NCBI RefSeq assembly: GCF_002943715.1
Contig: NZ_MQUA01000013.1
Coordinates: 2,101,001 to 2,165,000 of the forward strand
Source: Polaribacter filamentus
GTDB lineage: Bacteria > Bacteroidota > Bacteroidia > Flavobacteriales > Flavobacteriaceae
Direction: 5' to 3'
DNA: 64,000 nt
In this document: positions 7,153 to 57,343 of the stretch, piece after piece
How positions within the stretch are numbered: position 1 is the stretch's first letter
Layout of the letters: each line of letters starts with the position of its first letter
Notes under the pieces: model-generated
What the model saw: the letters and a program-made list of their open reading frames with translations, nothing else
Database searches by the model: none
What the model was told of the DNA's origin: nothing
Translations under genes and position numbers: made by a program

Positions 7153-7220
7153 GATTCAAAGTTAATTTATGCAATTCTAAATCTCGCAACTTTATGTCCA
7201 GTCTAATGTAGTAATTCCAT

Positions 7221-7301
7221 TTTGATACAATTTCTATTTTTTGGATTGGAACTTCAGCTCTTTCAGTTTTATTGGCATTATTAGTTTGAAAAAAAACATA
7301 A
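7221..7301 (+). pseudogene. C-terminal tail of an OPA-family (GlpT/UhpC-like) transporter, third copy
   Basis: It encodes FDTISIFWIG followed by ALSVLLALLV, a premature TGA, and KKT. This matches the last 26 residues of the transporters at 31145-32448 and 57344-58648, where the TGA is TGG. The rest was lost at the IS3 boundary. With the HAD relic that follows, it shows that another cassette of the same type once lay to the left. Confidence 0.8.
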
Positions 7302-7321
7302 ATTTTAAAAAATAAAAGCTA

Positions 7322-7690
7322 AAAAATTATAATTTTTGATTTAGGTGGCGTGATTATGAATTTGGATGTAACAAAAACAATTAAAGCATTACATAAAATA
7401 GGTATTAAAAAAATTGTCAATAACACAGGCCATAATTACCATCATTCTTTTTTATGATTTCGAAGTAGTGGCAATTAGTGAGGAACAATTCATCGAATCT
7501 TTACAAAAATTATCAAAAAAAACTAAGCTTTTTAGAAATTAAAGAAGCTTAGAATGCAATGATATTAGATATTCCTGTTAATAGAATTTTTTTCTTAAAA
7601 ATTTAAAGAAGGAGTAGAACTTATTCTTATTGAGTAATACCAACATTAGTATTCAGCAATTAAAATATTTAAGTGAATTTAAATGGAAGA
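7322..7690 (+). pseudogene. HAD-family phosphatase relic (third copy)
   Basis: It begins KIIIFDLGGVIMNLDV and continues with NNTGHNYHHSFFYDFE, matching the intact HAD gene at 32468 (IIFDLGGVIMNLDV, NNTGHHYTDPIFYDFE). After a stop near 7540 the homology continues in other frames (NAMILDIP, then IEQYQH-like pieces), so several frameshifts and deletions have accumulated. The part from 7433 onwards is duplicated at 41039. Confidence 0.8.
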
Positions 7691-7838: not shown

Positions 7839-8288
7839 TTGAGAACTATACTACTTTTACTCCTCCTTATTCTAAAAAGCATTGCTGCCTTTAGCCAAGA
7901 AAACACCAATCTTGACTATTTTAGGAAGCAAGCCATAGAAAACGCACCCACTTTAAACGAAAATAAGAACTTACTAAAGCGTGGTGAAATTGAGAATAGC
8001 ATTATTGATGCACAGAATAATGCGTTTTTAGTAAATGCAACTTCCGAAGTGTTGGTTGCACCCTATTTTAATACCAATAGCCAGCTGATAGCGATTACCA
8101 CTACCCCATCCTCCAAAGCTTTTGGCTATGATGTTGGCATTACCAATGGATGTTTATATGCGGCGCAGGTACTTGTGACAAAGAATTTGTTTAACAAAGT
8201 AATTACTGAAAATTTACTCTTTCAAAATAAAATCATAAATACAACTATTGCCTTTTTATCCGAAGAACTTACACAACCCTATTCTTAA
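7839..8288 (+). pseudogene. truncated TolC-family outer-membrane efflux protein, copy A
   Basis: 149 residues from a TTG start: a signal peptide (LLLLLLILKSIAAFSQ) then the N-terminal helix region typical of TolC-type efflux proteins (NLDYFRKQAIENAPTLNENK). The family is usually over 400 residues, so two thirds are missing: the frame stops just before the response-regulator gene. The same truncation occurs in copies B and C, so it predates the duplications. Confidence 0.65.
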
Positions 8289-8316
8289 ACATTATTATAG
8301 TCTTAAATTTACAAAC

Positions 8317-8835
8317 ATGAAATATCTCATAGCCGAAGACGAAATCGATTTGCAACAAGCAATTGTCACCTATTTACAACGTGATGGTAATATTTGTGAA
8401 GTTGCATCAAATTTTAGAGAAGCTTCCGAAAAAGCTGCCATCTATGAGTATGATATTATTATTTTAGATATCAATTTGGTTTCTGGTAGTGGTTTAGACA
8501 TCCTAAAAACACTAAAAAAAGAAAAGAAAAAAGCAGGTGTTATTATTATTTCTGCTAATAATTCTTTAACGGATAAATTGGAAAGATTGGATTTAGGAGC
8601 CGATGATTATATTACAAAACCTTTTCATTTAGCACGTCATACATTTGCTACAACAGTCACATTAACAAACGGAGTACCTATAGAATCAGTTAGTAAAATG
8701 TTAGGTCATAAATCACTAAAAACGACCCAACACTATGCGAAGGTTTTAGATAGAAAAGTTAGTGAGGATATGCAAGCGTTAAAAAATAAATTCTTAGAAC
8801 AAAAAATTAATAATTTTAATTCTGAAAATATTTAA
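8317..8835 (+). CDS. chimera: response-regulator receiver domain fused to tyrosine-recombinase C-terminus
   Basis: 172 residues. Residues 1 to about 104 are the receiver domain of the OmpR-type regulator at 59082 (EDE acidic pocket, phospho-acceptor D51, K101 in ITKPFHLA). Then the sequence switches to the C-terminal catalytic part of a tyrosine recombinase: HLARHTF (HxxRH), LGHKS and a Tyr in TQHYAKV. The first catalytic Arg is missing, so recombination activity is unlikely. The joint lies in CTTTTCATTT, a stretch shared by both parents. ATG 8317 is chosen by comparison with the intact regulator. Whether it is expressed or is just scar DNA is unknown. Confidence 0.75.
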   Translation: MKYLIAEDEIDLQQAIVTYLQRDGNICEVASNFREASEKAAIYEYDIIILDINLVSGSGLDILKTLKKEKKKAGVIIISANNSLTDKLERLDLGADDYITKPFHLARHTFATTVTLTNGVPIESVSKMLGHKSLKTTQHYAKVLDRKVSEDMQALKNKFLEQKINNFNSENI

Positions 8836-9004: not shown

Positions 9005-9962
9005 TTGAGTTATACGCTTAGCATCTGTTTTATTTGATTTTGATATATTGGTTTACTTTCTACCATTCTATTAATCGTTTTATGAAATATGCTGGTTTTA
9101 AATTGAGATCGATTAATTCTAAAACAAAACTCATCAAAGTATGCTTGAATATGCCATTTACTTACATGGGTTGGTATTGCTCTGAACCATGACTTAACTT
9201 GCATAATCACAATGTGTAATTGTTTGAAATTAGCACCATTATTACTATATATTTGGTCAATGTCATACATCTCTTTTAAAGGTTGGTAACCTCTCCATTT
9301 ATCAGTTACTATTTTAGCAGATGTGCTTATATGCTCTTCAAATATCGGGGTTAATGATTTTGCAGAATAGTCTTTGATGGATCTGATATAAACTCTTTTA
9401 ACTTTATTGCCATCTGTTAATTCTACTGCGATAACAGCCTTTTTCTTTTTCGTATCATAACTTCTTCCTTGTTTGCCTTCTTCTTTCCCTCCAACAGTAA
9501 ATTCATCAACATGGATTAATTTCTCTAAAGGATATTTTTGACTGCTTTTCATTGCTTTACGCACTTTTTGCATGAAATACCACGCTGTTCCTTGGCGAAT
9601 GCTAAAACGTTTTCCCATTTGAATACTTGAAATACTTTTACTACTTGTACTCATTTCAAAAACCACACAAAAGGCTTTTTGCAATCCAAATTTAACTTTA
9701 TGAAATAAGGTGTTTGCAGTGGCGCTTTCTACGTGTTGACAGTTATAACAATGGTATCTATAATCTACTTTTTCACAGCCTTTGGTATGACCACATTTCA
9801 TACAAGTAAATCCATCTTGCCATTTTATTTTGGCTAAATACGCTTTACAAGCAGCATCATTTGGTAATTCTTTTATAAAGTTTAGTATATCTTGACCTTC
9901 AAATTGTTCCCTATCTCTTGTTTTAAAGGTTATAATATATGGAAATTAAATGACTAACTCAA
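9005..9962 (-). mobile_element. IS1595-family insertion sequence
   Basis: 958 bp with ends TTGAGTTA...TAACTCAA, flanked by a perfect 8-bp target duplication TAATTAGT (8997-9004 and 9963-9970); 8 bp is typical of IS1595. The empty target site occurs once in copy B (inside TATATAATTAGTAAAGAC). It landed at about codon 8 of the ECF sigma gene that follows. Confidence 0.92.
9010..9945 (-). CDS. IS1595-family transposase
   Basis: The frame is open from 9945 to the stop at 9010 (311 codons, the usual family length). An ATG appears only at 9801, which would cut off the first Cys of the zinc ribbon (FTCMKCGH...YHCYNCQH), so the true start is upstream at a non-ATG codon or has been lost. The ISXO2-like catalytic core is present (HVDEFTVGGKEEGKQGR, IVTDKWRGY, then the C-terminal region). 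It is the only gene of the element. Confidence 0.8.
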   Translation of the reverse strand, partial: FPYIITFKTRDREQFEGQDILNFIKELPNDAACKAYLAKIKWQDGFTCMKCGHTKGCEKVDYRYHCYNCQHVESATANTLFHKVKFGLQKAFCVVFEMSTSSKSISSIQMGKRFSIRQGTAWYFMQKVRKAMKSSQKYPLEKLIHVDEFTVGGKEEGKQGRSYDTKKKKAVIAVELTDGNKVKRVYIRSIKDYSAKSLTPIFEEHISTSAKIVTDKWRGYQPLKEMYDIDQIYSNNGANFKQLHIVIMQVKSWFRAIPTHVSKWHIQAYFDEFCFRINRSQFKTSIFHKTINRMVESKPIYQNQIKQMLSV

Positions 9963-10483
9963 TAATTAGTAAAGACAGTTTAAAAGAAATCTTTGACTCA
10001 TATTACAAAATGCTTGTGCTTTTTGCAAATCGCTTTTTGTCTTCTATAGGGGAATCAGAAGATCTGGTACAAGATGTATTTATTGATCTTTGGGAAAAGA
10101 ATAATGAATTTCCAAATGAAATTTCTTTAAAAATTTTCTTGTATAAAGTAGTTCGCAACAAATGTTACAATATTCTTAAACATAATAAAGTAAAAAATAA
10201 ATATGCAGAAAATGCCATCCAATCAATAGAAGATGACAATTTTTTTATTAAGCAAATCCTGGAAGATGAAACGGTTAAACAACTTTATGATGCTATTGAA
10301 ATACTTCCAAACCATAAAAAAGAAATCATCAAACTTAGTTTAAAAGGGATGAAGAATAGTGAAATTGCTGAAGAATTAGATATAAAGCTACAAACGGTTA
10401 AAACGCTTAAATCGCAGTCCTATAAAATTTTAAGAGAAAAACTGAAAGGTATTGACACTATTATTTATTTTTTGTTGAACTAA
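9950..10483 (+). CDS. ECF (FecI-like) RNA polymerase sigma factor, copy A, start codon supplied by IS1595
   Basis: 177 residues. The sigma-2 region (ANRFLSSIGESEDLVQDVFI) and the sigma-4 helix-turn-helix (MKNSEIAEELDIKLQTVKT) are intact. Only a few residues differ from its twin at 44584. The first codons ATG-ACT-AAC-TCA come from the inverted repeat of the IS1595 copy and read in frame into ATAATTAGT, replacing the original N-terminus. No FecR follows: an IS5 element starts 77 bases after the stop. It is therefore an orphan duplicate of the cassette 2 sigma. Confidence 0.85.
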   Translation: MTNSIISKDSLKEIFDSYYKMLVLFANRFLSSIGESEDLVQDVFIDLWEKNNEFPNEISLKIFLYKVVRNKCYNILKHNKVKNKYAENAIQSIEDDNFFIKQILEDETVKQLYDAIEILPNHKKEIIKLSLKGMKNSEIAEELDIKLQTVKTLKSQSYKILREKLKGIDTIIYFLLN

Positions 10484-10560: not shown

Positions 10561-11835
10561 AAGGCCGTTGCAAAAAGCGAACTTAATTAATTTTACTTTT
10601 TAGAGTTCCCTTTTTTTTAGCTACAACATCGATTATGCTATTTTTTTTCTATTTTAAGTGAGTAAATGCCTTTTTTAGGCTTCATTTTTCCTTAATTTTT
10701 ACAATTAGACGCAAATATCCCTGGACTTCGATATAAATTGTAGCACATTGCCTCCATCAAATTTTGTGTATGCATTTTTTTCATCCCTCTATATCTTGCA
10801 ATTCCACCTTTAAACCATAATTTTATTCCTCCAAAAGTACGTTCTACTTTAAACCTTGTTTTTCCTATTAATTTATTGAATCTAGTTTCCCATTTTGTTA
10901 ACGGTTTATTTTTTACCGCCTTTTTAAGGATATGATTCTTTAAATTACGCTTCTTTAAAATCGCAACATTTTTCTTTGATTGGTACCCTTTATCTGCCTT
11001 TAGAGGGATGCCTTTTGGTAATGCTACATTTACAGTTTCTAGAACTTCCTCCAAATTTGCAATCTCATTTTTGCTGGCAGTTGTGGTTAGTACTCCTAGA
11101 ACAAGTCCTTCGTTATCCGTTACATGATGCTTTTTAAACCCAAAATGGTACTTTCCTCTTTTCTTTAACCAAGTACCCTCTTTATCGACACTATCTGGAT
11201 ATTCTTTGTGTACTTCTACTTGGTCTGCACAGCGGTCTTCGGTTACCTTAAAATTTGTTTTTCCTTTTGGTCTAAGTGGCGTATCTATTACACTAGCGTC
11301 TATTATTAAACCTGTTTTTACAATGATATTATGTGCTTCTAGCTGTTTGTTTATGGAGGTAAATAATTTTTCGAAGGTTTGTGTTTTGGTTAATGCGGTT
11401 CTAAACCTACTTAAAGTACTATGATCTGGAGCAACCTGTTCAATGGTCATCCCACAAAAATAACTAAAGGAAAGACTGTCATTTATTCGGTCTTCAACTT
11501 CATAATCGCTTAAACCATACCAACTTTGTAAAAGACACATTTTAAAAAGTAATGTCCCATCATAAGAAGGCTTGCCAGTGGCACTTTTTCCTTTTAAATA
11601 ATCATTATTTATTAGGATAGAGATCGTATCCCAATCGATAAGGGTGTTTATTTGGGTGAAAAATGTCTTTTTAATTTTTCTTGCTCGTAAATCGCAAATG
11701 CTATCGGCTAAAGTTGGTTGTTTTTGTATTTTCATACACTAAATTTACAGATTAATATACTTACAATCATATATTTAACATAAATAATAACGTGTTATTT
11801 TTGTTTTTTTTTAGGCACTTCCTTGCAACGGTCTT
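10561..11835 (-). mobile_element. IS5-family insertion sequence
   Basis: 1275 bp with inverted repeats AAGGCCGTTGCAAAAAG / AAGACCGTTGCAAGGAAG. Its left end sits exactly where homology between repeat copies A and B stops. No clear target duplication was found, so flanking DNA may have been deleted between the sigma gene and whatever used to follow it. Confidence 0.85.
10692..11735 (-). CDS. IS5-family transposase (DDE)
   Basis: 347 residues. The N-terminal DUF772-like region (SYDGTLLFKMCLLQSWYGLS) is followed by DDE core motifs LIIDASVIDTPL, LKADKGYQSK and ERTFGGIKLWFKGG with YRG. It appears complete. Start ATG 11735 lies 100 bases inside the inverted repeat. Confidence 0.9.
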   Translation of the reverse strand: MKIQKQPTLADSICDLRARKIKKTFFTQINTLIDWDTISILINNDYLKGKSATGKPSYDGTLLFKMCLLQSWYGLSDYEVEDRINDSLSFSYFCGMTIEQVAPDHSTLSRFRTALTKTQTFEKLFTSINKQLEAHNIIVKTGLIIDASVIDTPLRPKGKTNFKVTEDRCADQVEVHKEYPDSVDKEGTWLKKRGKYHFGFKKHHVTDNEGLVLGVLTTTASKNEIANLEEVLETVNVALPKGIPLKADKGYQSKKNVAILKKRNLKNHILKKAVKNKPLTKWETRFNKLIGKTRFKVERTFGGIKLWFKGGIARYRGMKKMHTQNLMEAMCYNLYRSPGIFASNCKN

Positions 11836-11867
11836 ATATAAACAATATTAAAATTAGTATAATTTAA

Positions 11868-11881: not shown

Positions 11882-11896
11882 TTATTACTTCTGTAG

Positions 11897-40693: not shown

Positions 40694-40866
40694 GCTTAAC
40701 AAATAATGAAAATGTAAAAACTCAAATATAATTGCAAAAAAAATTAGAAATTACATCCCTCTAGTTGAACAATATAATATTCAACAAAAAGAACAAGCAT
40801 TAAAAAAATAACCAAAACTGAAAAATTAAAAATTCATATAAAATAATCAAAAGAAGTTGCAGATGT

Positions 40867-41040
40867 TTGCTCTATAAAAAAAATCTTACTTTTCATTTAG
40901 CACGTCATACATTTTCAATAATTGTTACTTTAACCAATGGTGTTAGCACTGAAACAGTTTCTCAACTTTTAGGTCATTCACGCATTTCAACAACTCAAAT
41001 TTATGCTAAAGTTATTGAAAGAAAATTAACTGAGGATTTA
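40867..41040 (+). pseudogene. C-terminal fragment of a tyrosine recombinase
   Basis: It encodes NLTFHLARHTFSIIVTLTNG, VSQLLGHSRISTTQIYAKVI and ERKLTEDL: the HxxRH, GH and catalytic Tyr boxes of a Bacteroidota phage/transposon-type integrase. The N-terminal parts are missing or decayed upstream. At its end the frame runs straight into the HAD relic at the shared word TAATTACC. It differs from the recombinase piece in the chimera at 8317, so two recombinases contributed. Confidence 0.75.
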
Positions 41041-41290
41041 ATTACCATCATTCTTTTTTATGGTTTCGAAGTAGTGGCAATTAGTGAGGAACAATTCATC
41101 GAATCTTTACAAAAATTATCAAAAAAAACTAAGCTTTTTAGAAATTAAAGAAGCTTAGAATGCAATGATATTAGATATTCCTGTTAATAGAATTTTTTCT
41201 TAAAAATTTAAAGAAGGAGTAGAACTTATTCTTATTGAGTAATACCAACATTAGTATTCAGCAATTAAAATATTTAAGTGAATTTAAATG
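41039..41290 (+). pseudogene. HAD phosphatase relic, copy B
   Basis: Almost identical to 7433-7690 (FEVVAISEEQFIESLQKLSK and so on), starting abruptly at TAATTACCATCATTC. It is fused in frame to the recombinase fragment, giving a 93-residue open frame ending at 41148. The first 40 codons of the HAD gene are missing. Confidence 0.8.
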
Positions 41291-41443
41291 GAAGATAAAA
41301 GAATTAGACTCAAAACCCTGTAATTTATAAAATTTAAAGTTTTTCTTTATTTTATAATATCAAAAGAAATACATCACAAAAACACTTCATATTTGCTTTA
41401 GATTTGATAAGTACATTTATACTTTTAAATTTAATATGTTGTT

Positions 41444-41893
41444 TTGAGAACTATACTACTTTTACTCCTCCTTATTCTAAAAAGCATTGCTGCCTTTAGC
41501 CAAGAAAACACCAATCTTGACTATTTTAGGAAGCAAGCCATAGAAAACGCACCCACTTTAAACGAAAATAAGAACTTACTAAAGCGTGGTGAAATTGAGA
41601 ATAGCATTATTGATGCACAGAATAATGCGTTTTTAGTAAATGCAACTTCCGAAGTGTTGGTTGCACCCTATTTTAATACCAATAGCCAGCTGATAGCGAT
41701 TACCACTACCCCATCCTCCAAAGCTTTTGGCTATGATGTTGGCATTACCAATGGATGTTTATATGCGGCGCAGGTACTTGTGACAAAGAATTTGTTTAAC
41801 AAAGTAATTACTGAAAATTTACTCTTTCAAAATAAAATCATAAATACAACTATTGCCTTTTTATCCGAAGAACTTACACAACCCTATTCTTAA
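41444..41893 (+). pseudogene. truncated TolC-family protein, copy B
   Basis: 149 residues, the same protein as 7839-8288, with TTG start, signal peptide and identical early end. Not expected to form an efflux channel. Confidence 0.65.
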
Positions 41894-42060
41894 ACATTAT
41901 TATAGTCTTAAATTTACAAACATCAAATATCTCATAGCCGAAGACGAAATCGATTTGCAACAAGCAGTTGTTACCTATTTGCAACGTGATGGTAATATTT
42001 GTGAAGTCGCATCAAATTTTAGAGAAGCTTCCGAAAAAGCTGCCATCTATGAGTATGATA

Positions 42061-43042
42061 ACCCGTTGTGCATTATAAATAGTTAAAAAAAGTTATTCAT
42101 TTGACTATTAAAAGTCGTATATTTAATTGACAATCAATCGATTAAATACAATGAATAACTTTAGAGCAAATTACGATAAAATTTTAGAAGTCTTAGCCAC
42201 AATTACAGAAAAGGAACAATTTTTACGTCAAAACAGGAAACCAAAACTAAAAGACATTGAATTAATCGCTATGAATTTAACAGCAGAATATATGGGTATA
42301 GACAGTGAATGTCAGTTGTTTCGGGATATTCCAGAATATTTGTTTGCTAAAATAGAGCGATCAGTTTACAATAAACGGAAGCGAAAATTATTTTTTGCCA
42401 TTGAATTTATAAGAACTCAACTCTCCAATAAGTTCACGGAGTTTGAAAACTATTATGTAGTAGATAGTATGCCTTTGGAGATTGTAAAACTCTCAAGAAG
42501 CGGGAGAAGTAAAGTTTGTAAAGAGTACTTTTATTCAGCCCCAAATAGAGGTTATTGTGCTAGTCAAAACATGCATTATTATGGCTATAAAATACATGCT
42601 GTTTGTTCTATTGATGGCGTGTTTAAAAGTTTTGATATTAGCAAAGCTTCTGTACATGATATTCATTATTTAAAAGACATTAAAAATCAGTTTAATAACT
42701 GTGTGGTTTTAGGGGACAAAGGATACCTAAGTGCGGACTATCAGTTAGATTTATTTGAGAGTAAACAAATTAAATTAGAAGTTCCAATGCGTAAAAATCA
42801 ACAGAATTACAAAAAACAAACGTATATTTTTAGGAAGAAAAGAAAACGAATTGAGACCTTGTTTTCTCAACTTTGTGACCAGTTTAAAATACGGAATAAT
42901 TATGCGAAAACTTTTGAAGGTTTTAAGACAAGAATTCTCTCAAAATTAACAGCACTAACTATCATTCAATACATTAACAAATTTGTTTTTAATAGGAATA
43001 TAAACAATTTAAAAGTCAATATTGTTTAAATGCACAACGGGT
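42061..43042 (+). mobile_element. IS982-family element, complete copy
   Basis: 982 bp, inverted repeats ACCCGTTGTGCATT at both ends. The left flank TATGATA is repeated at the right side of the second copy (44056-44062), a 7-bp target duplication that spans the pair. The uninterrupted site (GAGTATGATATTATT) is present in copy A. Confidence 0.93.
42151..43029 (+). CDS. IS982-family transposase
   Basis: 292 residues from ATG 42151 (MNNFRANYDKILEV); an in-frame TTG 24 bases upstream is unlikely. DDE residues lie in YYVVDSMPLEIVKL, VVLGDKGYLSADY and KRIETLFSQLCDQF. It appears intact and may be the active source of the copies in this window. Confidence 0.92.
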   Translation: MNNFRANYDKILEVLATITEKEQFLRQNRKPKLKDIELIAMNLTAEYMGIDSECQLFRDIPEYLFAKIERSVYNKRKRKLFFAIEFIRTQLSNKFTEFENYYVVDSMPLEIVKLSRSGRSKVCKEYFYSAPNRGYCASQNMHYYGYKIHAVCSIDGVFKSFDISKASVHDIHYLKDIKNQFNNCVVLGDKGYLSADYQLDLFESKQIKLEVPMRKNQQNYKKQTYIFRKKRKRIETLFSQLCDQFKIRNNYAKTFEGFKTRILSKLTALTIIQYINKFVFNRNINNLKVNIV

Positions 43043-43059
43043 TATATATCTATATTTAT

Positions 43060-44055
43060 ACCCGTTGTGCATTATAAATAGTTAAAAAAAGTTATTCATT
43101 TGACTATTAAAAGGCGTATATTTAATTAACAATCAATCGATTAAATACAATGAATAACTTCAAGGCAAATTACAATAAAATTTTAGAAGTCTTAGCCACA
43201 ATTACAGAAAAGGAACAATTTTTACGTCAAAACAGGAAACCAAAACTAAAAGACATTGAATTAATCGCTATGAATTAATCGCTATGAATTTAACAGCAGA
43301 TTATATGGGTATAGACACTGAGTGTCAGTTGTTTCGGGATACTCCAGAATATTTGTTTGCTAAAATAGAGCGATCAGTTTACAATAAACGGAAGCGAAAA
43401 TTATTTTTTGCCATTGAATTTATAAGAACTCAACTCTCCAATAAGTTCACGGAGTTTGAAAACTATTATGTAGTAGATAGTATGCCTTTGGAGATTGTAA
43501 AACTCTCAAGAAGCGGGAGAAGTAAAGTTTGTAAGGAGTACTTTTATTCAGCTCCAAATAGAGGTTATTGTGCTAGTCAAAACATGCATTATTATGGCTA
43601 TAAAATACATGCTGTTTGTTCTATTGATGGCGTGTTTAAAAGTTTTGATATTAGCAAAGCTTCTGTACATGATATTCATTATTTAAAAGACATTAAAAGT
43701 CAGTTTAATAACTGTGTGGTTTTAGGGGACAAAGGATACCTAAGTGCTGACTATCAGTTAGATTTATTTGAGAGTAAACAAATTAAATTAGAAGTTCCAA
43801 TGCGTAAAAATCAACAGAATTACAAAAAACAAACGTATATTTTTGGGAAGAAAAGAAAACGAATTGAGACCTTGTTTTCTCAACTTTGTGACCAGTTTAA
43901 AATACGGAATAATTATGCAAAAACTTTTGAAGGTTTTAAGACAAGAATTCTCTCAAAATTAACAGCACTAACTATCATTCAATACATTAACAAATTTGTT
44001 TTTAATAGGAATATAAACAATTTAAAAGTCAATATTGTTTAAATGCACAACGGGT
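43060..44055 (+). mobile_element. IS982-family element, second tandem copy
   Basis: 996 bp, i.e. 14 bp longer than the first copy because of a 14-bp tandem duplication in the transposase gene. It is separated from the first copy by 17 bases of AT-rich DNA (43043-43059). Confidence 0.92.
43150..44042 (+). pseudogene. IS982 transposase, frameshifted by a 14-bp tandem duplication
   Basis: It starts like the intact copy but the word GAATTAATCGCTAT is duplicated at about 43258-43285, giving a stop at 43278. An open frame resumes from ATG 43284 (252 residues) with all three DDE motifs, but lacks about 43 N-terminal residues. Probably inactive, though it could be moved by the intact neighbour. Confidence 0.88.
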
Positions 44056-44583
44056 TATGATATTATTATTTTAGATATCAATTTGGTTTCTGGTAGTGGT
44101 TTAGACATCCTAAAAACACTAAAAAAAGAAAAGAAAAAAGCGGGAGTTATTATTATTTCTGCTAATAATTCTTTAACGGATAAATTGGAAGGATTGGATT
44201 TAGGAGCCGATGATTATATTACAAAACCTTTTCATTTGGCACGTCATACATTTGCTACAACAGTCACATTAACAAACGGAGTACCTATAGAATCAGTTAG
44301 TAAAATGTTAGGTCATAAATCACTAAAAACGACCCAACACTATGCGAAGATTTTAGATAGAAAAGTTAGTGAGGATATGCAAGCGTTAAAAAATAAATTC
44401 TTAGAACAAAAATTAATAATTTTAATTCTGAAAATATTTAAGTAATTAATTTCCCACTACAAATAGAAAAATAGTTTTTAAAATAAATTAATTCTACTAT
44501 TTAGTTTAATTTACGTAACGTTGATGTTTAAATAATGAACTAATTCATATAATTTCATTTAATTTGTGAACTAAATAAACCAA

Positions 44584-45123
44584 TTGATTACTCAAAAATA
44601 TATAATTAGTAAAGACAGTTTAAAAGAAATCTTTGACTCATATTACAAAATGCTTGTGCTTTTTGCAAATCGCTTTTTGTCTTCTATAGGAGAATCAGAA
44701 GATTTGGTACAAGATGTATTTATTGATCTTTGGGAGAAGAATAATGAATTTCCAAATGAAATTTCTTTAAAAATTTTCATGTATAAAGTAGTTCGCAACA
44801 AATGTTACAATATTCTTAAGCACAATAAAGTAAAAAATAAATATGCAGAAAATGCCATTCAATCAATAGAAGATGACAATTTGTTTCTTAAGCAAATTCT
44901 GGAAGATGAAACGGTTAAACAACTTTATGATGCTATTGAAATACTTCCAAACCGTAAAAAAGAAATCATCAAACTTAGTTTAAAAGGGATGAAGAATAAT
45001 GAAATTGCTGAAGAATTAGATATAAAGCTACAAACGGTTAAAACGCTTAAATCGCAATCCTATAAAATTTTAAGAGAAAAACTGAGAGGTATTGACACTA
45101 TTATTTATTTTTTGTTGAACTAA
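44584..45123 (+). CDS. ECF (FecI-like) sigma factor of cassette 2
   Basis: 179 residues from TTG 44584 (MITQKYIISKDSLKEIF); no ATG is in frame nearby, and the site matches the ancestral form of the copy broken at 9005. Sigma-2 (ANRFLSSIGESEDLVQDVFI) and sigma-4 (NNEIAEELDIKLQTVKTLK) are intact. FecR follows after 227 bases on the same strand, so it is the natural partner. It should direct transcription of the susC-to-transporter run when released. Confidence 0.88.
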   Translation: MITQKYIISKDSLKEIFDSYYKMLVLFANRFLSSIGESEDLVQDVFIDLWEKNNEFPNEISLKIFMYKVVRNKCYNILKHNKVKNKYAENAIQSIEDDNLFLKQILEDETVKQLYDAIEILPNRKKEIIKLSLKGMKNNEIAEELDIKLQTVKTLKSQSYKILREKLRGIDTIIYFLLN

Positions 45124-45350
45124 AATTTAATCCAAAAAGACACTATTTATAATAGTTAAATCAACAAGTTAGGAGTTAAATGTCTGACAATTAACAATTT
45201 TAATGTCAACTTCAAAATGAATCCTAAAAAAAATAAATAACATATTTAGTTATTTTATGCTGAATATTTATTTATTTCATAAAAAAAGTCAACTTTTAAT
45301 ACTACCTTTTTAAAATTTAGTTGTTCTATATATAAATACATAAAGTTAGA

Positions 45351-46510
45351 ATGATTGAGTTTTCACACATTTCAAAATTATTAATTAAGAAAAAATTAAA
45401 GATCTTAACAAATACTGAAAAAGTACAGTTAAAGAAATTTAATAAAAAACACCCATTTTCAAAAGATATTAAGATTGCTGAATTAATCGACAGCGTGAAT
45501 TCATATTCTAAAATAAATAAGGAAAATGCTTGGAAATTAATTGAGGCTAGAACTAAAACAGAAAGGCCGGTTATTAAATTATTCAAAAAGCGCTGGTATG
45601 GGTATGCAGCTTCTCTAGTTTTAATTTTAACATCAGCTTACTTTTTAAAAGATATATTATTTCAAACAGCTATTCCAAATAACCCCAATCAAACAGAAAC
45701 AAGTAATATCGTAAAAGGTACAGACAAAGCTATATTAACGCTAGCGGATGGTTCTGAGGTTTTTCTAGAAAAAGGGACGGCTGTTAAAACTCAAAACGCT
45801 AATAGCAATGGAAAAGAAATAGTCTATACAGCTAACACAAAAAGAACAGCAACCGTTATATATAATCGCTTAACAATTCCTAGAGGTGGTCAATTCTTTA
45901 TTAAACTTGCAGATGGCACGCAAGTATGGCTAAATTCTGAATCACAATTAAAATATCCAGTTGCGTTTATCGAAGGCAAAACAAGAGAGGTAGAATTAAT
46001 TTATGGTGAAGCCTATTTTGAGGTTACATCAAGCTCACAAAACAACGGTGCTAAATTTAAAGTAATAAATAAATCTCAAGAAGTAGAGGTTCTGGGTACA
46101 GCATTTAATATAAAAGCATATAAAGATGAAAATACTATTTATACTACCTTGGCAGAAGGCAGTGTAGCCATTACTTTCGATAATAAATCTGAAATACTAG
46201 TACCTAACCAACAATCAATTTTTAATACAACAAATAGTAATTTCAAACTTAAAACAGTAGACGTATACAATGAAATATCTTGGAAAGATGGCGTTTTTAG
46301 TTTTGAAAGAAAACCGTTAAAAGATATTATGAAAGTATTCGCTAGGTGGTACGATATGGAAGTTGTTTTTGAAAATAAATCATTGGAAGACGAAAAGTTT
46401 TTTGGGGTACTTGATAAAGAGCAAAGTATAAAAGAAATTCTTGAAACAATTAAAATTTTAAAATAATAGAAAATTATGAAATAAAAGATAAAACAATAAT
46501 TCTAAAATAA
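45351..46510 (+). CDS. FecR-family anti-sigma factor (cassette 2), probable frameshift near the end
   Basis: 371 residues to a stop at 46466. Adding one A to the run at 46452-46455 extends it to 46510 with FKIIENYEIKDKTIILK, matching the tail of the other FecR (NIISSYKINGKKIVIK). Layout: cytoplasmic segment (1 to about 80), membrane helix (about 84-102), FecR domain (LTIPRGGQFFIKLADGTQVW), DUF4974 domain (FERKPLKDIMKVFARWYD). The sigma-binding N-terminus is unlike that of the cassette 1 FecR. Confidence 0.88.
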
Positions 46511-46513
46511 AAA

Positions 46514-46558
46514 AGGGAGCGAAGCAAAACATTTCGACGTGTAAAGTGCTTCGTCCCT
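46514..46558 (+). promoter_or_regulatory. conserved hairpin in the susC leader (cassette 2)
   Basis: AGGGA plus CGAAGC (46514-46525, one bulged G) pairs with GCTTCG plus TCCCT (46548-46558). Same position and shape as 20067-20114, with a compensating base-pair change at the loop-closing pair. It lies 44 bases before the susC ATG. Confidence 0.6.
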
Positions 46559-46602
46559 AAAATCAAGTATTAATTAAACAATAACTAACACAATTCAAAT
46601 TT

Positions 46603-49600
46603 ATGAAAATTAATTTTATTAATGTCCGTTACGTCATACCCAAACGGCTACAATTTTTTATCATGAGAACATTTATTTTTTTATTGTGTTCATCCATTTT
46701 TGGTTTTTCTCCAGGAAAAAGTTTTTCTCAGGCAAAAATAACAATTGAAAAGGACAAGGTCGTCTCTGTTAATGAAGTTTTTAGAATCATTAAAGATCAG
46801 ACAAACTATCGATTCATATATCCTGAAGCCTTATTTGAACGCACTCCAAAAGTACAACTCAAAAAAGGAGTTATATTATTATCAAAACTATTAGAAAAAA
46901 GTTTTCAAGGAAGTAATATAAAATTTCAATTGTCTAAAAATAATACAATAGTAATTGAAGAAGAGATAAAACCTGTTCCAGACATTGTTAAGCAGCAAAA
47001 AATTTCAATAACTGGTATTATTTCAGATAAAGATGGTAATCCTTTACCAGGTGCAAGCATCATAGAAAAAGGTACAACAAATGGTACTGAAACAGATTTT
47101 GAAGGTAATTTTATAATTTCTGTAAAAAATGATGATGCAATTTTAGTAATACAATATTTAGGATTTGTAAAAAAGGAAGTTTCTGTAAAAGACAAAACTA
47201 TTCTTAAAATAGTTTTAATTGAAGATGCAGCAGCACTTGATGAAATAGTTATCGTCGGTTATGGTTCTCAAAAATTAACAAACGTTTCTGGTTCTATTGC
47301 AAAAGCAAATATTGGTGAACTACAAGACACACCCGTATCTAATTTCGATCAAGCTTTAGTTGGTAAACTTGCTGGAGTCCAAGTTATCCAAACAACAGGA
47401 GAACCAGGAAGAGAATTAACTATTAAAGTTAGAGGTACCGGAACAATTACTGCAGGTAGCGAACCTTTATATGTTGTAGATGGTGTGCCCATTGATAGTT
47501 CGGGTCAGGCAACAGAGATAGTTAATATGGAAGACGTAGAGTCTATTCAAATTCTAAAAGATGCTGCATCTGCTTCGATTTACGGTTCTCGTGGTGGAAA
47601 CGGAGTTGTCTTAATTACCACAAAAAAAGGCAGACAAGGTAAAATGAAAGTGAGTATTAACCAATCTATAGGTTTTCAAGTTTTATCTAAAAAAATTGAT
47701 TTGATGGATGCTTATGAATATGCTAGACTTTCTAAAGATGGCCATGATGCTGCCTATTTACAAGAAGTTCCTACAGGTAACGCAAACGACCCTAATAGTA
47801 TTAGACCTATTGGATATCACAAAATTCCAGAAGAATTATTTCCTTATTTAGAAGGTGTAGAAGGTTTGACAAATACCGATTGGCAAGACGAAATATACAG
47901 ACCTGCTGCAATAGAAAGATATAATATTTCTATTCGTGGAGGTAACGAGAATGTAAATTATTTTGTGTCTGCAAATCACTCTAATCAAGAAGGAATTATT
48001 TTAAATTCTGATTATTCAAAGACTGGTATTCGAGCAAACATTGGCATCAATGCAGGTAAGTTTAAAATAGGATTAAATATGAGTCCTTCTTATACAATTG
48101 AAAATAGAGTAAGTGCTAATAATCCTTATTTTAGTGACGGTATTGTGCAATCTGCACTCTCCTACTCTCCTACTTGGCCAGTTTACAATCCAGACGGAGG
48201 CTTTAATTATGATGGAAATGGTTTCTGGAGAGTTGGAACGGATTATCAACATAATGAAATTGTAAACCCAGTTGCTTTAGCCATGCTACCTAAAAATGAA
48301 ATTGAGCATTATAATTTATTAACAAACTTATTTTTAGAATATGAAGTAATTGAAGATTTAAAAGTAAAATCCTCTTTTGCTGTGAATTACAATCAATATC
48401 AAAACGAATATTATCGTCCTGCTATTTTAGAGGAAAGAGGTCGTAACAACACAGGCAGACCTTCCAATCCGACTGGAAGATTAAGCACTACAAATATTTA
48501 TAACTGGATATTTGAAAACACCATCAACTATAAAAAGAGTTTCGGCAAACATAATTTTGATATTTTAGGAGGAATTACAGCTCAAAAAGATAGAAGTAAA
48601 TTACAACGAATAAACGCTTCTGTGACTTCAGATACTCCTGTTATTAATGCCATTCAAATTATAAATGCAGAACAACTTGCTATTGGAAGTGGAAGCGTTC
48701 AAGAATGGTCTTTATATTCACTTCTTTCCAGAATTCAATACGATTTTGATAATAAATATTTGCTTTCTGCTTCTTTAAGAGGAGATGCTTCTTCTCGTTT
48801 TGGGGCTAATAATAAATGGGGATATTTCCCTTCCGTTTCTGCAGGTTGGCGAATAGCACAAGAGGATTTCCTTAAAGATAGCGAATGGATCAGTGAACTA
48901 AAATTAAGAACAAGTTTTGGTTTAACAGGGAACTTTCAAATAGGTAATTATGAGCAAATATCTTTAATTACAGATGATACTTACATAACTGGTAATCCTG
49001 GAAGCAGACAAACTGGTTTAAGACCATCGCAAGTTGCAAACCCTGATGTTTCTTGGGAAAAAACAGCCATGTTTAATGCTGGTATAGATGTTTCTTTATT
49101 TCAAAATCAACTTGGTTTTACCTTTGAATACTACAACGGAAATACTACAGACTTATTATTGCAAGTACCTGTTCCTCAAACCACTGGATTTGGAACTGCT
49201 TTACAGAATATTGGTGAAGTAAACAATACTGGTATAGAAGCTTTGATAACCTTTTCGCCATATTTAGGGGCATTTCAATGGAATAGCAGTCTAAATTTTT
49301 CTATGAATAGAAACAAAGTAGTAGCCTTAGGTCCAGAAAACACAGATATTATCACGACCGCTGGTACTGGTCATGCGTTTTTTAAAACAGAGGTTGGCCA
49401 ACCTATAGGGAACTATTTTTTACTGGTACAAGATGGAATTTTTTCTACGCAAGAAGAACTTGACAAATACCCTCATTTCGAAAGCACTGCTGTGGGTGAT
49501 TTTAGATTTGTGGATGTGGATGGCGATGGTGAACTAGATGTTAATAAAGATAGAACAATTGTAGGGAACTATGCTCCAGATTTTATATTTGGATTCTCAA

Positions 49601-50085
49601 ACTCTTTCAAGTACAAAGGTTTTGATCTAAATGTAGCTTTGCAAGGAAGTTATGGTGGAGAGATTTTAAATCTTTCTAGAAGATACAACGCAAATGGCGA
49701 GGGTAATTTTAACAATACTAGAGATTTATTAAACAGATGGCAATCTGAGGAAAACCCGGGAGACGGAAACACCAATCGAGCAAATAGAAAAGCTAGAGGT
49801 AACAATGGGAGAACATCTACTTGGCACGTAGAAGATGGCTCTTATTTACGTTTACAAAATGTTTCTTTAGGTTATGCTTTATCAAGTTCTACAATAGAAA
49901 AATTTAAACTTTCAAAAGCTAGATTATTTGTTACTGGTAATAATTTATTTACATGGACAAATTATACAGGCTATAATCCTGAGGTAAATTTAGCTGGAGG
50001 TGGAGATCAGTTAACACCAGGTTTAGATTATGGTGTTTATCCTTTAGCAACAACCTATTCAATAGGTATTAATCTTTCTTTTTAA
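46603..50085 (+). CDS. SusC-like TonB-dependent receptor with STN domain (cassette 2)
   Basis: 1160 residues, intact. Start ATG 46603 (MKINFINVRYVIPKRL), although MRTFIFLLC 60 bases on is a possible alternative. Signal, STN domain (about 50-110, VNEVFRIIKDQTNYRFIYPE), carboxypeptidase-like domain (ITGIISDKDGNPLPGASI), plug (IVIVGYGSQ, PLYVVDGVPIDSSG) and a barrel ending TTYSIGINLSF. Outer-membrane importer that also signals to FecR through the STN domain. Closely similar to the broken copy at 20157. Confidence 0.93.
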   Translation: MKINFINVRYVIPKRLQFFIMRTFIFLLCSSIFGFSPGKSFSQAKITIEKDKVVSVNEVFRIIKDQTNYRFIYPEALFERTPKVQLKKGVILLSKLLEKSFQGSNIKFQLSKNNTIVIEEEIKPVPDIVKQQKISITGIISDKDGNPLPGASIIEKGTTNGTETDFEGNFIISVKNDDAILVIQYLGFVKKEVSVKDKTILKIVLIEDAAALDEIVIVGYGSQKLTNVSGSIAKANIGELQDTPVSNFDQALVGKLAGVQVIQTTGEPGRELTIKVRGTGTITAGSEPLYVVDGVPIDSSGQATEIVNMEDVESIQILKDAASASIYGSRGGNGVVLITTKKGRQGKMKVSINQSIGFQVLSKKIDLMDAYEYARLSKDGHDAAYLQEVPTGNANDPNSIRPIGYHKIPEELFPYLEGVEGLTNTDWQDEIYRPAAIERYNISIRGGNENVNYFVSANHSNQEGIILNSDYSKTGIRANIGINAGKFKIGLNMSPSYTIENRVSANNPYFSDGIVQSALSYSPTWPVYNPDGGFNYDGNGFWRVGTDYQHNEIVNPVALAMLPKNEIEHYNLLTNLFLEYEVIEDLKVKSSFAVNYNQYQNEYYRPAILEERGRNNTGRPSNPTGRLSTTNIYNWIFENTINYKKSFGKHNFDILGGITAQKDRSKLQRINASVTSDTPVINAIQIINAEQLAIGSGSVQEWSLYSLLSRIQYDFDNKYLLSASLRGDASSRFGANNKWGYFPSVSAGWRIAQEDFLKDSEWISELKLRTSFGLTGNFQIGNYEQISLITDDTYITGNPGSRQTGLRPSQVANPDVSWEKTAMFNAGIDVSLFQNQLGFTFEYYNGNTTDLLLQVPVPQTTGFGTALQNIGEVNNTGIEALITFSPYLGAFQWNSSLNFSMNRNKVVALGPENTDIITTAGTGHAFFKTEVGQPIGNYFLLVQDGIFSTQEELDKYPHFESTAVGDFRFVDVDGDGELDVNKDRTIVGNYAPDFIFGFSNSFKYKGFDLNVALQGSYGGEILNLSRRYNANGEGNFNNTRDLLNRWQSEENPGDGNTNRANRKARGNNGRTSTWHVEDGSYLRLQNVSLGYALSSSTIEKFKLSKARLFVTGNNLFTWTNYTGYNPEVNLAGGGDQLTPGLDYGVYPLATTYSIGINLSF

Positions 50086-50097
50086 AACGAAATTCAG

Positions 50098-51471
50098 ATG
50101 AAAAAAATTATATACATATTATTAACTATGCTACTAACTTTTTCTAGTTGTAGTAAAGAGTTTGTAGAGTTAGCTCCCGAAAATGTTTTGAATACAGAAG
50201 ATTTTTTTAAGACAAAAGATGATTTTAATGCAGCTGTTTTAGCAGCCTACGCAAAATTACAAGGTCAAGTAGAAATTTATTTTGAATTGGTAGAATGGCG
50301 ATCTGATAATTTAGATTTATTAGCACCAACAGCGGGTACGCAGGACAGATTTAACATCAATAAATTTCAAGAAACCTCAGCAAACGGAATCTTACAAAAT
50401 GCTTGGGCAAATTTTTATAATGGTATTTTTAGAACCAATGTAATTACAGATAAAATTAACGAAGCTAATTTTGATGAAGAAATAAAAAACCAATTCGAAG
50501 GCGAAGCAAGATTTATAAGAGCTTTAACCTATTTTAATATTGTAAGGTTGTGGGGCGATGCGCCAATAGTTCTTACTGAAATAAGTGCAGAAGAATCGCT
50601 TACTCTTGGCAGAAGTCCAGTAGCTCAAGTTTATGAGGCTATTGAAGCAGATTTACTTTTTGCAGTAGAACATTTGCCAATATCGCATAGTTCTCAAGAC
50701 TTTGGTAGAGCTACAAAAGGAGCTGCAAGAACATTGTTAGGAAAAGTATATTTAACCCAAAATAAATATGCAGAAGCCGTAACCGTTTTAAATGATGTAG
50801 TCGGTCAGTATAGTTTGTTACCTACTATTTCTGACGTTTTTGACACCAGCAATAAAACAAACAACGAAATTATTTTTTCGATACGATTTAATAAAGAAAT
50901 AGAAGGCGAAGGACACGGTTTGTGGTTTGCAGTTTCCGATTTATCAATATCTCCTTTTACGCCAAAGTTAACAACTGCCTATTCTGCATCAGATAATAGA
51001 AAAGACGCCATAGCTTTTAGAGCTACAGGTAATCTTTTTGCACCTTCTAAGTTTTTTGATACGGAATCTACCGCAACAAGAAATTTTGGTAATGATTATA
51101 TTTTATTAAGATATGCAGATGTTTTATTAATGCTGTCTGAGGCATTAAATGAACAAAGTTATCAAGCAAATGGTATTGCGTTTACTTATTTGAATGAAGT
51201 GCGAGAAAGAGCAAATTTACCTGCATTAACATCAACAGAACTTTCAAATCAAAATAGTTTTAGAGAAACGATTTTGAATGAACGGTTTTTAGAATTTCCT
51301 TTTGAAGGACATCGTTGGTTTGACTTAATAAGAACTAAAACTGCAGAAAGTGAAATTAATGCTGGAATTGGGATTAGTATTCAAGATTATCAACTGCTTT
51401 ATCCAATGCCACAAGCAGAAATAGAAAAGATTAATAACACTACAATATTTTATCAAAACGATGGATACTAA
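50098..51471 (+). CDS. SusD-like surface lipoprotein (cassette 2)
   Basis: 457 residues, intact. Lipoprotein signal (LTFSSCSKEF), TPR-type SusD core (GEARFIRALTYFNIVRLWG), C-terminal part with NDYILLRYADVLLMLSEALN and FPFEGHRWFDLIRTK. It starts 12 bases after susC; its stop overlaps the ATG of the next gene (ATGGATACTAA). Confidence 0.93.
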   Translation: MKKIIYILLTMLLTFSSCSKEFVELAPENVLNTEDFFKTKDDFNAAVLAAYAKLQGQVEIYFELVEWRSDNLDLLAPTAGTQDRFNINKFQETSANGILQNAWANFYNGIFRTNVITDKINEANFDEEIKNQFEGEARFIRALTYFNIVRLWGDAPIVLTEISAEESLTLGRSPVAQVYEAIEADLLFAVEHLPISHSSQDFGRATKGAARTLLGKVYLTQNKYAEAVTVLNDVVGQYSLLPTISDVFDTSNKTNNEIIFSIRFNKEIEGEGHGLWFAVSDLSISPFTPKLTTAYSASDNRKDAIAFRATGNLFAPSKFFDTESTATRNFGNDYILLRYADVLLMLSEALNEQSYQANGIAFTYLNEVRERANLPALTSTELSNQNSFRETILNERFLEFPFEGHRWFDLIRTKTAESEINAGIGISIQDYQLLYPMPQAEIEKINNTTIFYQNDGY

Positions 51472-52797
51472 ATTTTTATACATATTATTTTTATTTCACT
51501 ATCATACTGTACACCGGACGAAGGTGGTGGTAATATTGGTGGCGGGATAGATCCTGACCCACAAATAACCGACACAACTTATGAATTAGCTACTTTTAAT
51601 AGTAATTACACCTATACACAAAGTACTTCTAGTGTGCAAGATCGTAACTTTTATTGGGCAACTTTAGTGGAGAAGAATACTACTATTAGCAATCTAGTGG
51701 GGAAAGATTTTGAGTTATCAAATTTTTTATCGCTTTATAAAGATCGATTAAATACCATTTCTAATCAAAATGATGCAACAGCAGCACAGTATGCAGAGGC
51801 ACTTAAATTTAAAGTTGATGAAATAACCAACATTAACGTTGCCCTTAAAAAACTTATTGAAGAGAATGTTACTAGTTTTAAAAGTTTTAGCGACAATCAT
51901 ATTGGAGTTTCAGGAGCTTTTAATCAATTTAAAGAAGTAAAAAATATTGACCGAATACATCAATTAATTGTTCAAGAAATGCTGTTGGGAATCAATCAAA
52001 TAATTGATACGTATTGTGCAGGAATAGCTCCTTTATATCCAATTATAGATTCTGTAAGTTTTGATGTAAATAGCGCACAATTTAAACTTTTGGTAAAAAA
52101 CTTAGTCACTAGTTTAAACACCAATAAAGCCGATTATAAATTGTTTTATCAACCCTTTTTAAAATTCGCTTTAGGTGTTTTAGAAATTAATGATCGAGAT
52201 GAAGCTGGTAGATACTTCCCAATGCGAGAAGGAGTAAACAAAGCCGCTTACAACTATATAAAAACTATTAATTGGGCCGATTATGACTATTCTATAATTG
52301 TGGTACTTGGAGATTCTCCAAATTCATCAAACGACTTACCAAATATTAGTCTTGGCGGTATGGCAAGAGCCGATCATGCAGTAGAATTATACAAACAAAA
52401 TAAAGCACCACTTTTAGTTTTTACTGGTGGCCATTTATATCCTGTACACACGCCATACAGCGAAGCGATTGAAGTAAGAAAATATGTAATGGATACTTAT
52501 AATATTCCAGAAAGTAGACTTCTGGTAGATCCTCATTCCAGACATACCACAACAAATATGAGAAATGTTGGACGCCTTATTTTTAAATACAACATTCCTA
52601 TTGACAAAAAGGGAATTATTTCTACATCAAATACGCATAGCGAATATGTTTCTTCAAACAGATATCCTACACGTTCACAGGCAGAAATGAATCACATTCC
52701 TGTAGAGTTATACAATCGTTTGTCTGACTTTGATATAGAATTCACATCACTTATAGAAGTGCTTCATTTAGACTCATCTGATCCATTGGATCCATAA
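51461..52797 (+). CDS. DUF218 lipoprotein (cassette 2), start probably frameshifted
   Basis: The frame is open from 51472, but the first usable start inside it is GTG 51634, which removes the export signal. Adding one T to the run at 51473-51477 joins it to ATG 51461, giving MDTKFFIHIIFISLSYCTPD, a lipoprotein signal as in the homologue at 25018. Helical region then DUF218 domain (DYSIIVVLGDSPN, LLVFTGGHLYP, PHSRHTTTNMRNVGRLIF). Same position and likely same role as the cassette 1 copy. Confidence 0.78.
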
Positions 52798-52808
52798 AAT
52801 AGTACACC

Positions 52809-54725: not shown

Positions 54726-54896
54726 AAATACAATAACTAAATCTCGTTAAATTTTATATTTTATACTGGTGTGGATTTATTTTCACGCCAAGTAAAAATG
54801 CTTTAAGCATAAAATAATTTTATTTTTTTTTGATTCTAATCAAAAGCGTATAAATGTAAAATAACGAGCACATATTAATCATTAAAACTTTAAATT

Positions 54897-56282
54897 ATGA
54901 AAAAAATTACACTCTTATTTTGTTTAGCAATCTTTCAATTTTCTTTCGGACAAACAATCAATTGGTCTTATGATATAGGATTTCAAATTAAACCACAATC
55001 ACCAGCAATAGCTTCAGATGGTACAATTTATATTGGATCTGAAGATAATACCAACTTTCATGCAATTAATGCAGATGGTACTCTAAAGTGGATATATTCA
55101 GAGCTTGGGGATAATGTATACTCATCAGCTTCAATTGGAAGTGATGGGACAATTTACGTGGGATCTAAAGATGATTTTTTACACGCTATTAACCCAGGTG
55201 GAACTCAAAAGTGGAAAGCCGCTGTGGGCAGTAATGTAATTTATTCTACACCCGCAATTGCAGATGATGGAACAATATATATTGGTTCTGATGACGATAA
55301 TTTGTATGCAATTAATTCTGATGGTTCTCAAAAGTGGACATTTGCTGGTGGTGATAACTTTAGAGGATCTCCTTCAATTGCTCAAGATGGTACCATATAT
55401 GTAGGTAATGATGACGATAACTTATACGCTATAAATACAGATGGTTCACAAAAATGGTCATTTAATGTTGGTGGAAATATACAGGGTGGTGTAGCTATTC
55501 AAGCCGATGGAACTATAATAGTTGGTGTAGATCAAGGAAGTGGAACTGGAGCTGTTTTTGCAATTAATCCAGATGGAACACAAAAGTGGACTCAAACAAT
55601 AGTTGGTAGAATATCTGTATGTTCTCCTGCTTTAGCTTCAGATGGCACTATATATGTTGGAACAAAAGAGGGTTTTAATATGCTAGCTTTAAGTGCCACA
55701 GATGGTAGTCAAGTTTGGGAATATGTAATGGAAGATGGCGCTAGTATTATTAATTCTTCTCCAGCAGTAGGCAATGATGGAAAAATATATTTTGGTTCTT
55801 GGGATGACCATTTATATTGTTTAAATCCTGATGGTTCTTTTAACTTCAAAGTTAACTTAAATGCAGATGTATGGTCTTCTCCAGCTATTGTTAATGGAAC
55901 ATTATATATTGGGTCTTATGATAACAAATTGTATTCTATAGATATTCCATCAACTGGATTGGCAGATTCAGATTGGCCAATGTTCGGAAGAAATCAATAC
56001 CATACAAGTAATGTAAATACAGTTGTATTATCTACAACTCAAGAAAGTTTTATACCAGGTTTTAAAGTATATCCAAATCCTACTAAAAATAGTTTCTCTA
56101 TAGAAACTAGTTTTAATGGTGAAAAATCAGTTCAAATTTTTGATATTCTTGGCAAAAATGTTTTCTCGAAAACTATTTCTGGAAATAAGAAAATTGAGCA
56201 ATTAAATTTAAAATCAGGTATTTATCTTTTAAAAATATCTGAAAATGGGAAATCAACTTCATCAAAATTAATTATTGAATAA
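54897..56282 (+). CDS. secreted PQQ-like beta-propeller with T9SS sorting domain
   Basis: 461 residues. Signal peptide (1-18, FQFSFGQ), propeller (about 20-375; IGFQIKPQSPAIASDGTIYI, DGTIYVGSKDDFLHAINPGG) and T9SS domain (about 385-461, VYPNPTKNSFSI, LKSGIYLLKI). The propeller is nearly the same as that of the lipoprotein just upstream, so one domain was copied into two anchoring contexts. Its stop overlaps the next ATG by one base. Confidence 0.82.
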   Translation: MKKITLLFCLAIFQFSFGQTINWSYDIGFQIKPQSPAIASDGTIYIGSEDNTNFHAINADGTLKWIYSELGDNVYSSASIGSDGTIYVGSKDDFLHAINPGGTQKWKAAVGSNVIYSTPAIADDGTIYIGSDDDNLYAINSDGSQKWTFAGGDNFRGSPSIAQDGTIYVGNDDDNLYAINTDGSQKWSFNVGGNIQGGVAIQADGTIIVGVDQGSGTGAVFAINPDGTQKWTQTIVGRISVCSPALASDGTIYVGTKEGFNMLALSATDGSQVWEYVMEDGASIINSSPAVGNDGKIYFGSWDDHLYCLNPDGSFNFKVNLNADVWSSPAIVNGTLYIGSYDNKLYSIDIPSTGLADSDWPMFGRNQYHTSNVNTVVLSTTQESFIPGFKVYPNPTKNSFSIETSFNGEKSVQIFDILGKNVFSKTISGNKKIEQLNLKSGIYLLKISENGKSTSSKLIIE

Positions 56283-57261: not shown

Positions 57262-57294
57262 ATTCTTAAACTATTTAATTTGAATTAGTTAATT

Positions 57295-57327
57295 AAAGGG
57301 CGTAGCATAATAGGTTATGCCCTTTTT
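57295..57327 (+). terminator. terminator-like hairpin between GDPD and the OPA transporter
   Basis: AAAGGGCGTA (57295-57304) pairs with TATGCCCTTT (57316-57325), then more T. It overlaps a possible upstream start of the transporter (ATG 57317), which is therefore unlikely to be used. Confidence 0.7.
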
Positions 57328-57343
57328 AAATTCTTATCAAAAA

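Follow-up and report, generated by a model that had tools for sequence, protein, structure and literature searches.

Tandem duplications create a novel joint at which the end of one unit meets the start of the next, and the genes lying at the two ends can be fused there. In the portion of PMC9997567 considered here, duplications in Acinetobacter have units of 12-290 kb and 0-5 bp at the joint. PMC11111574, in the portion likewise considered, cites Anderson and Roth 1978 (his fusions) for tandem duplications that fused genes to new promoters, and itself builds duplications on 9-bp borders. The locus analysed here lies in a 64,000-nucleotide stretch of the Polaribacter filamentus genome (the window, meaning that whole stretch; G000:C13:2101001-2165000, on a contig of 3.19 Mb) and resembles the join points in those portions of the two papers in having a novel joint that runs from unit end to unit start with short or no homology. 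Its unit measures about 15 kb, compared with the 12-290 kb of Acinetobacter, and the word at its joint is longer, 11-14 bp compared with 0-5 bp. We consider, with a probability of roughly 70%, that the open reading frame at this joint marks where the units of an old tandem duplication met, an accidental scar whose copies have since decayed. The finding most likely belongs to the known join-point fusions as an ordinary rearrangement scar and represents no new kind of protein.

The chimeric open reading frame (copy A; 8317..8835, + strand) consists of receiver codons 1-106 and a recombinase C-terminus that begins at codon 103; it encodes 172 aa when counted from the ATG at 8317, and a longer frame with a TTG start spans 8248-8835. 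The receiver-recombinase fusion is real. As the first-pass annotation had proposed, Pfam places two domains in the one 172-aa frame, Response_reg at residues 4-106 (E 1.5e-22) and Phage_integrase at residues 81-145 (E 2.3e-9), and PF00072 scores 80.3 bits against a cut-off of 30.2, with model positions 2-104 of 111 aligned. The retained receiver residues, read from the sequence, are the acidic pair E7/D8, D51 (8467-8469), S79 and K101 (8617-8619), and thus include both residues (D51 and K101) on which the annotation had based its view that the receiver active site is kept. Receiver helix 5 is probably replaced beyond its first residues. The recombinase boxes were also described correctly: HLARH, GH and HYAK are present, and the first catalytic Arg is absent. 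The roles of these receiver and recombinase motifs are presumed ones, and the full catalytic set of a tyrosine recombinase is taken by us to be R, K, HxxR, H and Y. The PF00589 set is incomplete in copy A, in which the recombinase portion starts at FHLARH and the first Arg and the Lys part are missing. Since copy A has no N-terminal, core-binding or first-Arg part, its product would be incapable of working as a recombinase.

The two halves meet at a shared word (8622..8634, + strand; CTTTTCATTTAGC, beginning at 8621 or 8622), the general form of which is CTTTTCATTT(A/G)GC. Copy A carries CTTTTCATTTAGC and two further copies of the region, B and C, carry CTTTTCATTTGGC; the same word occurs in the recombinase genes of relatives, for example as ACCTTTCATTTAGCACG (in genome G062) or ACTTTTCATTTGGCACG, and in the orthologous regulator of genome G020 as CCTTTTCATTTAGCAGAA. 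The parents are identical over about 11-14 bp at the joint, the length depending on which relatives stand for the parents. Over the 687 bp from 7947 to 8633, which run from a truncated TolC-like gene into the receiver, copy A is 98% identical to the intact regulator region (8633 corresponds to 59398); past the shared word it departs from the regulator and equals a recombinase. The identity therefore ends right at the word, which bears out the claim that the chimera switches at a shared FHLA word followed by AGC or GGC, and since both genes read FHLA from this word, the switch keeps the frame. When the regulator was codon-shuffled and compared with the recombinase, the longest common word averaged 10.4-11.0 bases, and with each of the three recombinase sequences used, 20-25 of 300 shuffles gave a common word of at least 13 bases (the longest-word rows for copy C use a stretch starting three bases early). 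Thus, the fusion as a sequence exceeds chance, but the shared word by itself does not. Because shuffled genes also share a longest word of about 11 bases, the word indicates neither kinship nor a designed site; it would be of a sort at which illegitimate recombination can join DNA.

Both parents exist intact in relatives, the regulator in G020 and a 419-aa recombinase in G062. Within the window, the parent of the receiver half is represented by an intact OmpR-type response regulator (copy C; 59082..59756, + strand) with receiver and Trans_reg_C domains by Pfam, followed by a sensor histidine kinase (59760..61010, + strand), the pair lying about 50 kb downstream of copy A. The regulator orthologue of G020 has DNA 92% identical to the receiver half, the match stopping at the joint, and stands in the order TolC-like gene, 307-aa gene, RND transporter (ACR_tran), 380-aa gene, regulator, kinase. 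Of the TolC-like gene in this order, only the start persists before the regulator in the window genome (58712..59081, + strand), and the G020 RND protein finds no match there above 29% identity, the best-scoring one having 28%. The regulator-kinase pair (59037-61010) is hence without the RND efflux genes that precede it in G020, and a GlpT-like gene stands before it instead; with those genes gone, it has probably been deprived of its old target and promoter. In the receiver part, copy C differs from G020 by 22 silent and 3 replacement codons, a pattern suggesting that the intact regulator is probably held by selection.

The second parent is best represented by the recombinase of G062, which carries Arm-DNA-bind_5, SAM_5 and Phage_integrase domains and to which the recombinase tail is, at the protein level, 93% identical over 70 residues in copy A and 100% over 61 in copy B. 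In the window genome (G000), the G062 protein has two full-length matches, 36-38% identical; a close N-terminal part was not found, the N-terminal and middle matches being only 27-40% identical, and none lies within 60 kb upstream or 40 kb downstream. The genome does contain three other recombinase 3' pieces, again without a close N-terminus: one in the window (rec''; 40849..41037, + strand; protein 65% identical), which abuts a remnant of a HAD hydrolase gene in copy B, and two at G000:C4:238205-238459 and G000:C4:308165-308326. The first two of these pieces lie near SusC-type loci and have 84% identical DNA. Two recombinase genes, at 40850-40894 of the window and at locus L043 (genome G001), are frameshifted near the same A-rich run just before FHLARH.

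These pieces bear on the possibility that the fusion is a scar of site-specific integration, in which the recombinase gene of an element carried a core site near FHLA and the regulator served as a secondary site. The word at which the joint lies is conserved in these recombinase genes, the frames that follow the G062 recombinase look mobile-element-like by eye, and all the recombinase 3' pieces start within about 45 residues of each other, a clustering that a recombination hot spot could also give. However, the starting residues are not the same (about 320-339 in two related pieces, 346 in the fused tail and 363), and a decayed gene would show a conserved C-terminus anyway. Among 13 recombinase relatives (loci L037-L049), moreover, 11 begin at residue 1, one of them frameshifted; the remaining two begin at residue 17, where a contig ends, and at residue 296. 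The tail also leads into a sigma-FecR-SusC locus that is conserved in genome G074, where these genes stand in a row corresponding to the window from 44500 on, and no match to the recombinase tail was found by blastn in the approximately 600 bp before the sigma2 locus of that genome. The sigma2-FecR-SusC order is, judged by this comparison, native. A scar of site-specific integration is very unlikely in our view. Of the suggestion that the fusion is a scar of integration by short homology, what stands is recombination at a short word; integration of an element is less likely, as the tail leads into the locus conserved in G074 and ending in the intact regulator, an arrangement typical of a tandem-duplication joint.

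The same fusion occurs a second time in the window. Copy B comprises a left part (41039..42060, + strand), with the HAD remnant, a TolC-like remnant and the receiver start, and a right part (44056..44445, + strand), with the rest of the receiver, the joint at 44230 and the recombinase tail; its fused gene spans 41922-42060 and 44056-44445. Copy B is broken and is not an intact gene: its start codon is lost (codon 1 is ATC), it is split at codon 47 by two tandem IS982-family elements (42061..44055, + strand), for which a 7-bp target duplication can be read by eye, and the loss of 1 bp near the end shifts its last codons. The two elements form a direct tandem without a spacer and have 97% identical DNA; the family assignment was tested on the first, and the second was assigned by DNA identity. 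Copies A and B are 97-99% identical over about 2.2 kb, including the joint and the sigma gene, and at codons 54 and 58 they have in common derived synonymous bases that are absent from copy C and G020. Because of these two shared derived bases, the fusion was probably formed once, in line with the annotated history of one formation followed by copying, although one silent site, codon 105 within the shared word, goes against this grouping of A with B (TTG in B and C, TTA in A and G020). That a single misassembled joint had been counted twice was also considered; since the two copies carry base differences and different IS insertions, they would not be one such joint.

The surroundings of the copies argue for a duplication. 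The names SusC, SusD, GlpQ and TolC used for the window are presumptive or assigned by position; for the sigma, FecR, MFS/GlpT-like, HAD, RND and transposase identities, a single copy was tested in each case, and the GlpT models score below their cut-offs. From copy B, the order reads RR'::rec'-sigma2-FecR2-SusC2...GlpT2-TolC'-RR-HK, the sigma2-FecR2-SusC2-SusD2-...-GlpT2 locus (44584..58648, + strand) forming the body of what would be a 15.2-kb duplicated unit, and the distance from the FHLA word in B to that in C is 15,158 bp. Left of the joint in A, the order is the same as left of C, namely GlpT 3' end, TolC', RR: a remnant with the 3' end of a GlpT-like MFS transporter gene and part of a HAD hydrolase gene (7219..7671, + strand) is followed by a TolC-like start of the outer-membrane-efflux kind (7839..8288, + strand), an internally deleted 149-aa frame named by its position before the G020 RND gene, in which Pfam found nothing. 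We propose that illegitimate recombination at the shared 11-14 bp word duplicated a stretch running from the 3' part of the recombinase gene into the receiver part of the regulator gene (about 15 kb as the region is now arranged), and that the receiver half would thereby have been placed before the recombinase tail, in frame. The joint region would then have been copied once more, perhaps via the IS elements now bounding copy A, and both copies would have decayed, leaving B broken and A open but probably functionless.

As expected for a duplication joint, the right end of the unit is joined to its left end (in B, RR'::rec' followed by sigma2...TolC'-RR), and there is short homology at the joint, the 11-14 bp word. 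As to the parental ends outside the joint, the regulator end is present (copy C) and the N-terminal part of the recombinase was not found. With the right-hand parent present and the left-hand one lost, we infer that this is a duplication joint; the assignment is not a proof. Instead of two complete copies of the unit, one is complete and the left one is represented by fragments to the left of the A and B joints, as would be expected if this were an old, decayed array. Because the other half of the recombinase is gone, the same joint could have been reached by another route, in which duplication first placed the regulator region upstream of a recombinase gene, whole or already truncated, and a deletion between the two words then fused them. 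This route yields the same joint, recombinase 3' pieces without an N-terminus do occur elsewhere in the genome, and further joints made by deletion or exchange lie in the region (TolC'/RR, GlpT2/TolC' in C, and rec''/HAD). Nevertheless, it requires one more event than a tandem duplication, together with a prior copy of the regulator, and the genes downstream of B are already arranged as in a duplication unit. We therefore regard it as unlikely, and favour a duplication rather than a deletion between copies as the founding event.

The tandem duplication would have been followed by further changes. The GlpT 3' ends of A and C are only 89% identical (15 of 140 columns differ), compared with 98% across the 687 bp from TolC' to the receiver, so that not every piece can stem from a single simultaneous duplication; copy C is also without a 589-base stretch (the HAD piece and the TolC start) that is present on the left of A. 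Between A and B lies a different SusC/SusD-GlpT locus (locus 1), 66-80% similar, and at least one more event is therefore needed. The two similar sigma-FecR-SusC-SusD-GlpT loci occupy 12196-32448 and 44584-58648. At locus L157 of genome G008, a GlpT-like gene stands directly before such a locus, and relatives may carry tandem copies. Within a 794-aa gene at 14096-15877, there are about 30 copies of a 51-base repeat.

Copy A is separated from its ECF sigma gene (9950..10483, + strand; 97% identical to the one at 44584) by an IS1595-family insertion (9005..9961, - strand) with a target duplication of about 9 bp by eye. The homology between A and B stops at 10560, and an IS5-family element follows (10561..11836, - strand) for which no target duplication was found. 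Beside this element, at 11836-11882, 47 bp are 83% identical to the end of the IS982 elements. Four copies of IS5 were inspected by eye: a 5-bp duplication is present in two of the four (on C4 and downstream of the window) and absent in two (at A and upstream). Copy A perhaps arose by a further rearrangement, such as exchange through one of its bordering IS elements, a reading with which the missing duplication at the IS5 of A agrees; given the IS982-like end and the fourth IS5 copy that also lacks a duplication, the mover of A may have been IS5 or another of these elements. In short, the first event is fairly well supported, and the later history is tentative.

A search of other genomes, as proposed with the first-pass annotation, returned no second instance of the fusion. 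It was absent from the matches listed for 165 other genomes of the genus (166 including G000, with three candidates scored per genome) and for 298 other genomes of the family (299 including G000, drawn from a larger group, with at most 11 candidates scored per genome). A full fusion in a relative would be expected to rank at the top of the match tables. Among the genus matches listed, those to the receiver stop at query 317-318 in the six best relatives, those to the recombinase begin at about query 298-325, many at 302-310, and short chance matches lie elsewhere. Among the family matches listed, those starting at residues 56-98 lie mostly in frames of about 400 aa, like whole recombinases; two that cover residues 1-147 (G239 and G196) are ordinary regulators by eye. 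A fusion common to other species was set aside on the strength of the genus and family matches listed, those of the genus being one half or the other or short chance stretches. In a wider contig scan, the longest matches among the best 80 of 575 confirmed loci cover residues 4-134 (35%) and 2-139 (32%), and the best named match comes from Nonlabens antarcticus. At least 5000 plasmid records match, of which at least 2951 cover 80% or more of the query, and the best-ranked one is an ordinary regulator. No report of a receiver-tyrosine recombinase fusion was found in the literature searched.

Copy A could in principle be a working single-domain receiver that either draws phosphate off the kinase at 59760, as a phosphate sink, or blocks this kinase, with the recombinase tail as a mere cap; this reading is a statement on function and is compatible with either origin. 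Single-domain receivers and phosphate sinks exist, the frame is open with the acidic pair, D51, S79 and K101 retained, and the receiver derives from the regulator cognate to this kinase, the intact copy of which is probably under selection. The probable replacement of helix 5 after its first residues speaks against such a role, as do the broken state of copy B and the absence of the fused protein among the genus and family matches listed. In addition, one of the changes particular to copy A is Gly90Arg, at a position that is Gly in B, C, G020 and five more orthologues (all six orthologues examined). The receiver of A has two silent changes and one replacement of its own, codon 105 being unclear, and the tail has one replacement, I143V, against B and G062; with so few changes, selection can hardly be tested. 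When the structures were predicted from single sequences with no alignment, the result was a pLDDT of 62 for the chimera and 46 for the intact control, both of low confidence. The Bacteroidota promoter pattern gave 10 matches against 6.2 expected by chance, none of them just upstream of copy A. We consider it very unlikely that copy A works in this manner, and the broken copy B, the Gly90Arg change and the lack of relatives among the matches listed weigh against the suggestion of a new single-domain receiver with a DNA-related tail. Copy A is probably an open but functionless gene. There is only a slim chance that it would be expressed as a decoy receiver that tunes its parent two-component system, a new signalling protein soon after birth; if this were true, it would give a rare look at a regulator that an accidental joint had produced.

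As a probable decayed join point, the locus lets one read how chimeric genes are assembled and destroyed by illegitimate recombination and IS elements within duplicated uptake loci of the SusC/SusD type. It also cautions that a chimeric frame, even when open and matched by two Pfam domains, is not necessarily a gene. Compared with the OmpR/PhoB-family regulator beside the RND efflux locus of G020, it has a receiver half with 92% DNA identity and, at C, the same neighbouring kinase, whereas A and B are without the DNA-binding domain and no close RND gene is found here. Compared with the Bacteroidota tyrosine recombinase of G062 (419 aa), the last 70 residues are 93% identical in A and 61 residues are 100% identical in B, but the fusion lacks the N-terminal, core-binding and first-Arg part. 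Like single-domain response regulators and phosphate sinks, it has a receiver without an output DNA-binding domain; unlike them, this receiver is cut in helix 5, has a foreign tail and shows no conservation that we could see. In contrast to the join-point fusions in the portions of PMC9997567 and PMC11111574 considered, the joint described here is old and re-copied, carries IS insertions and decay and is, as far as is known, unselected, and it unites two coding frames in phase, with the left-hand parent lost.
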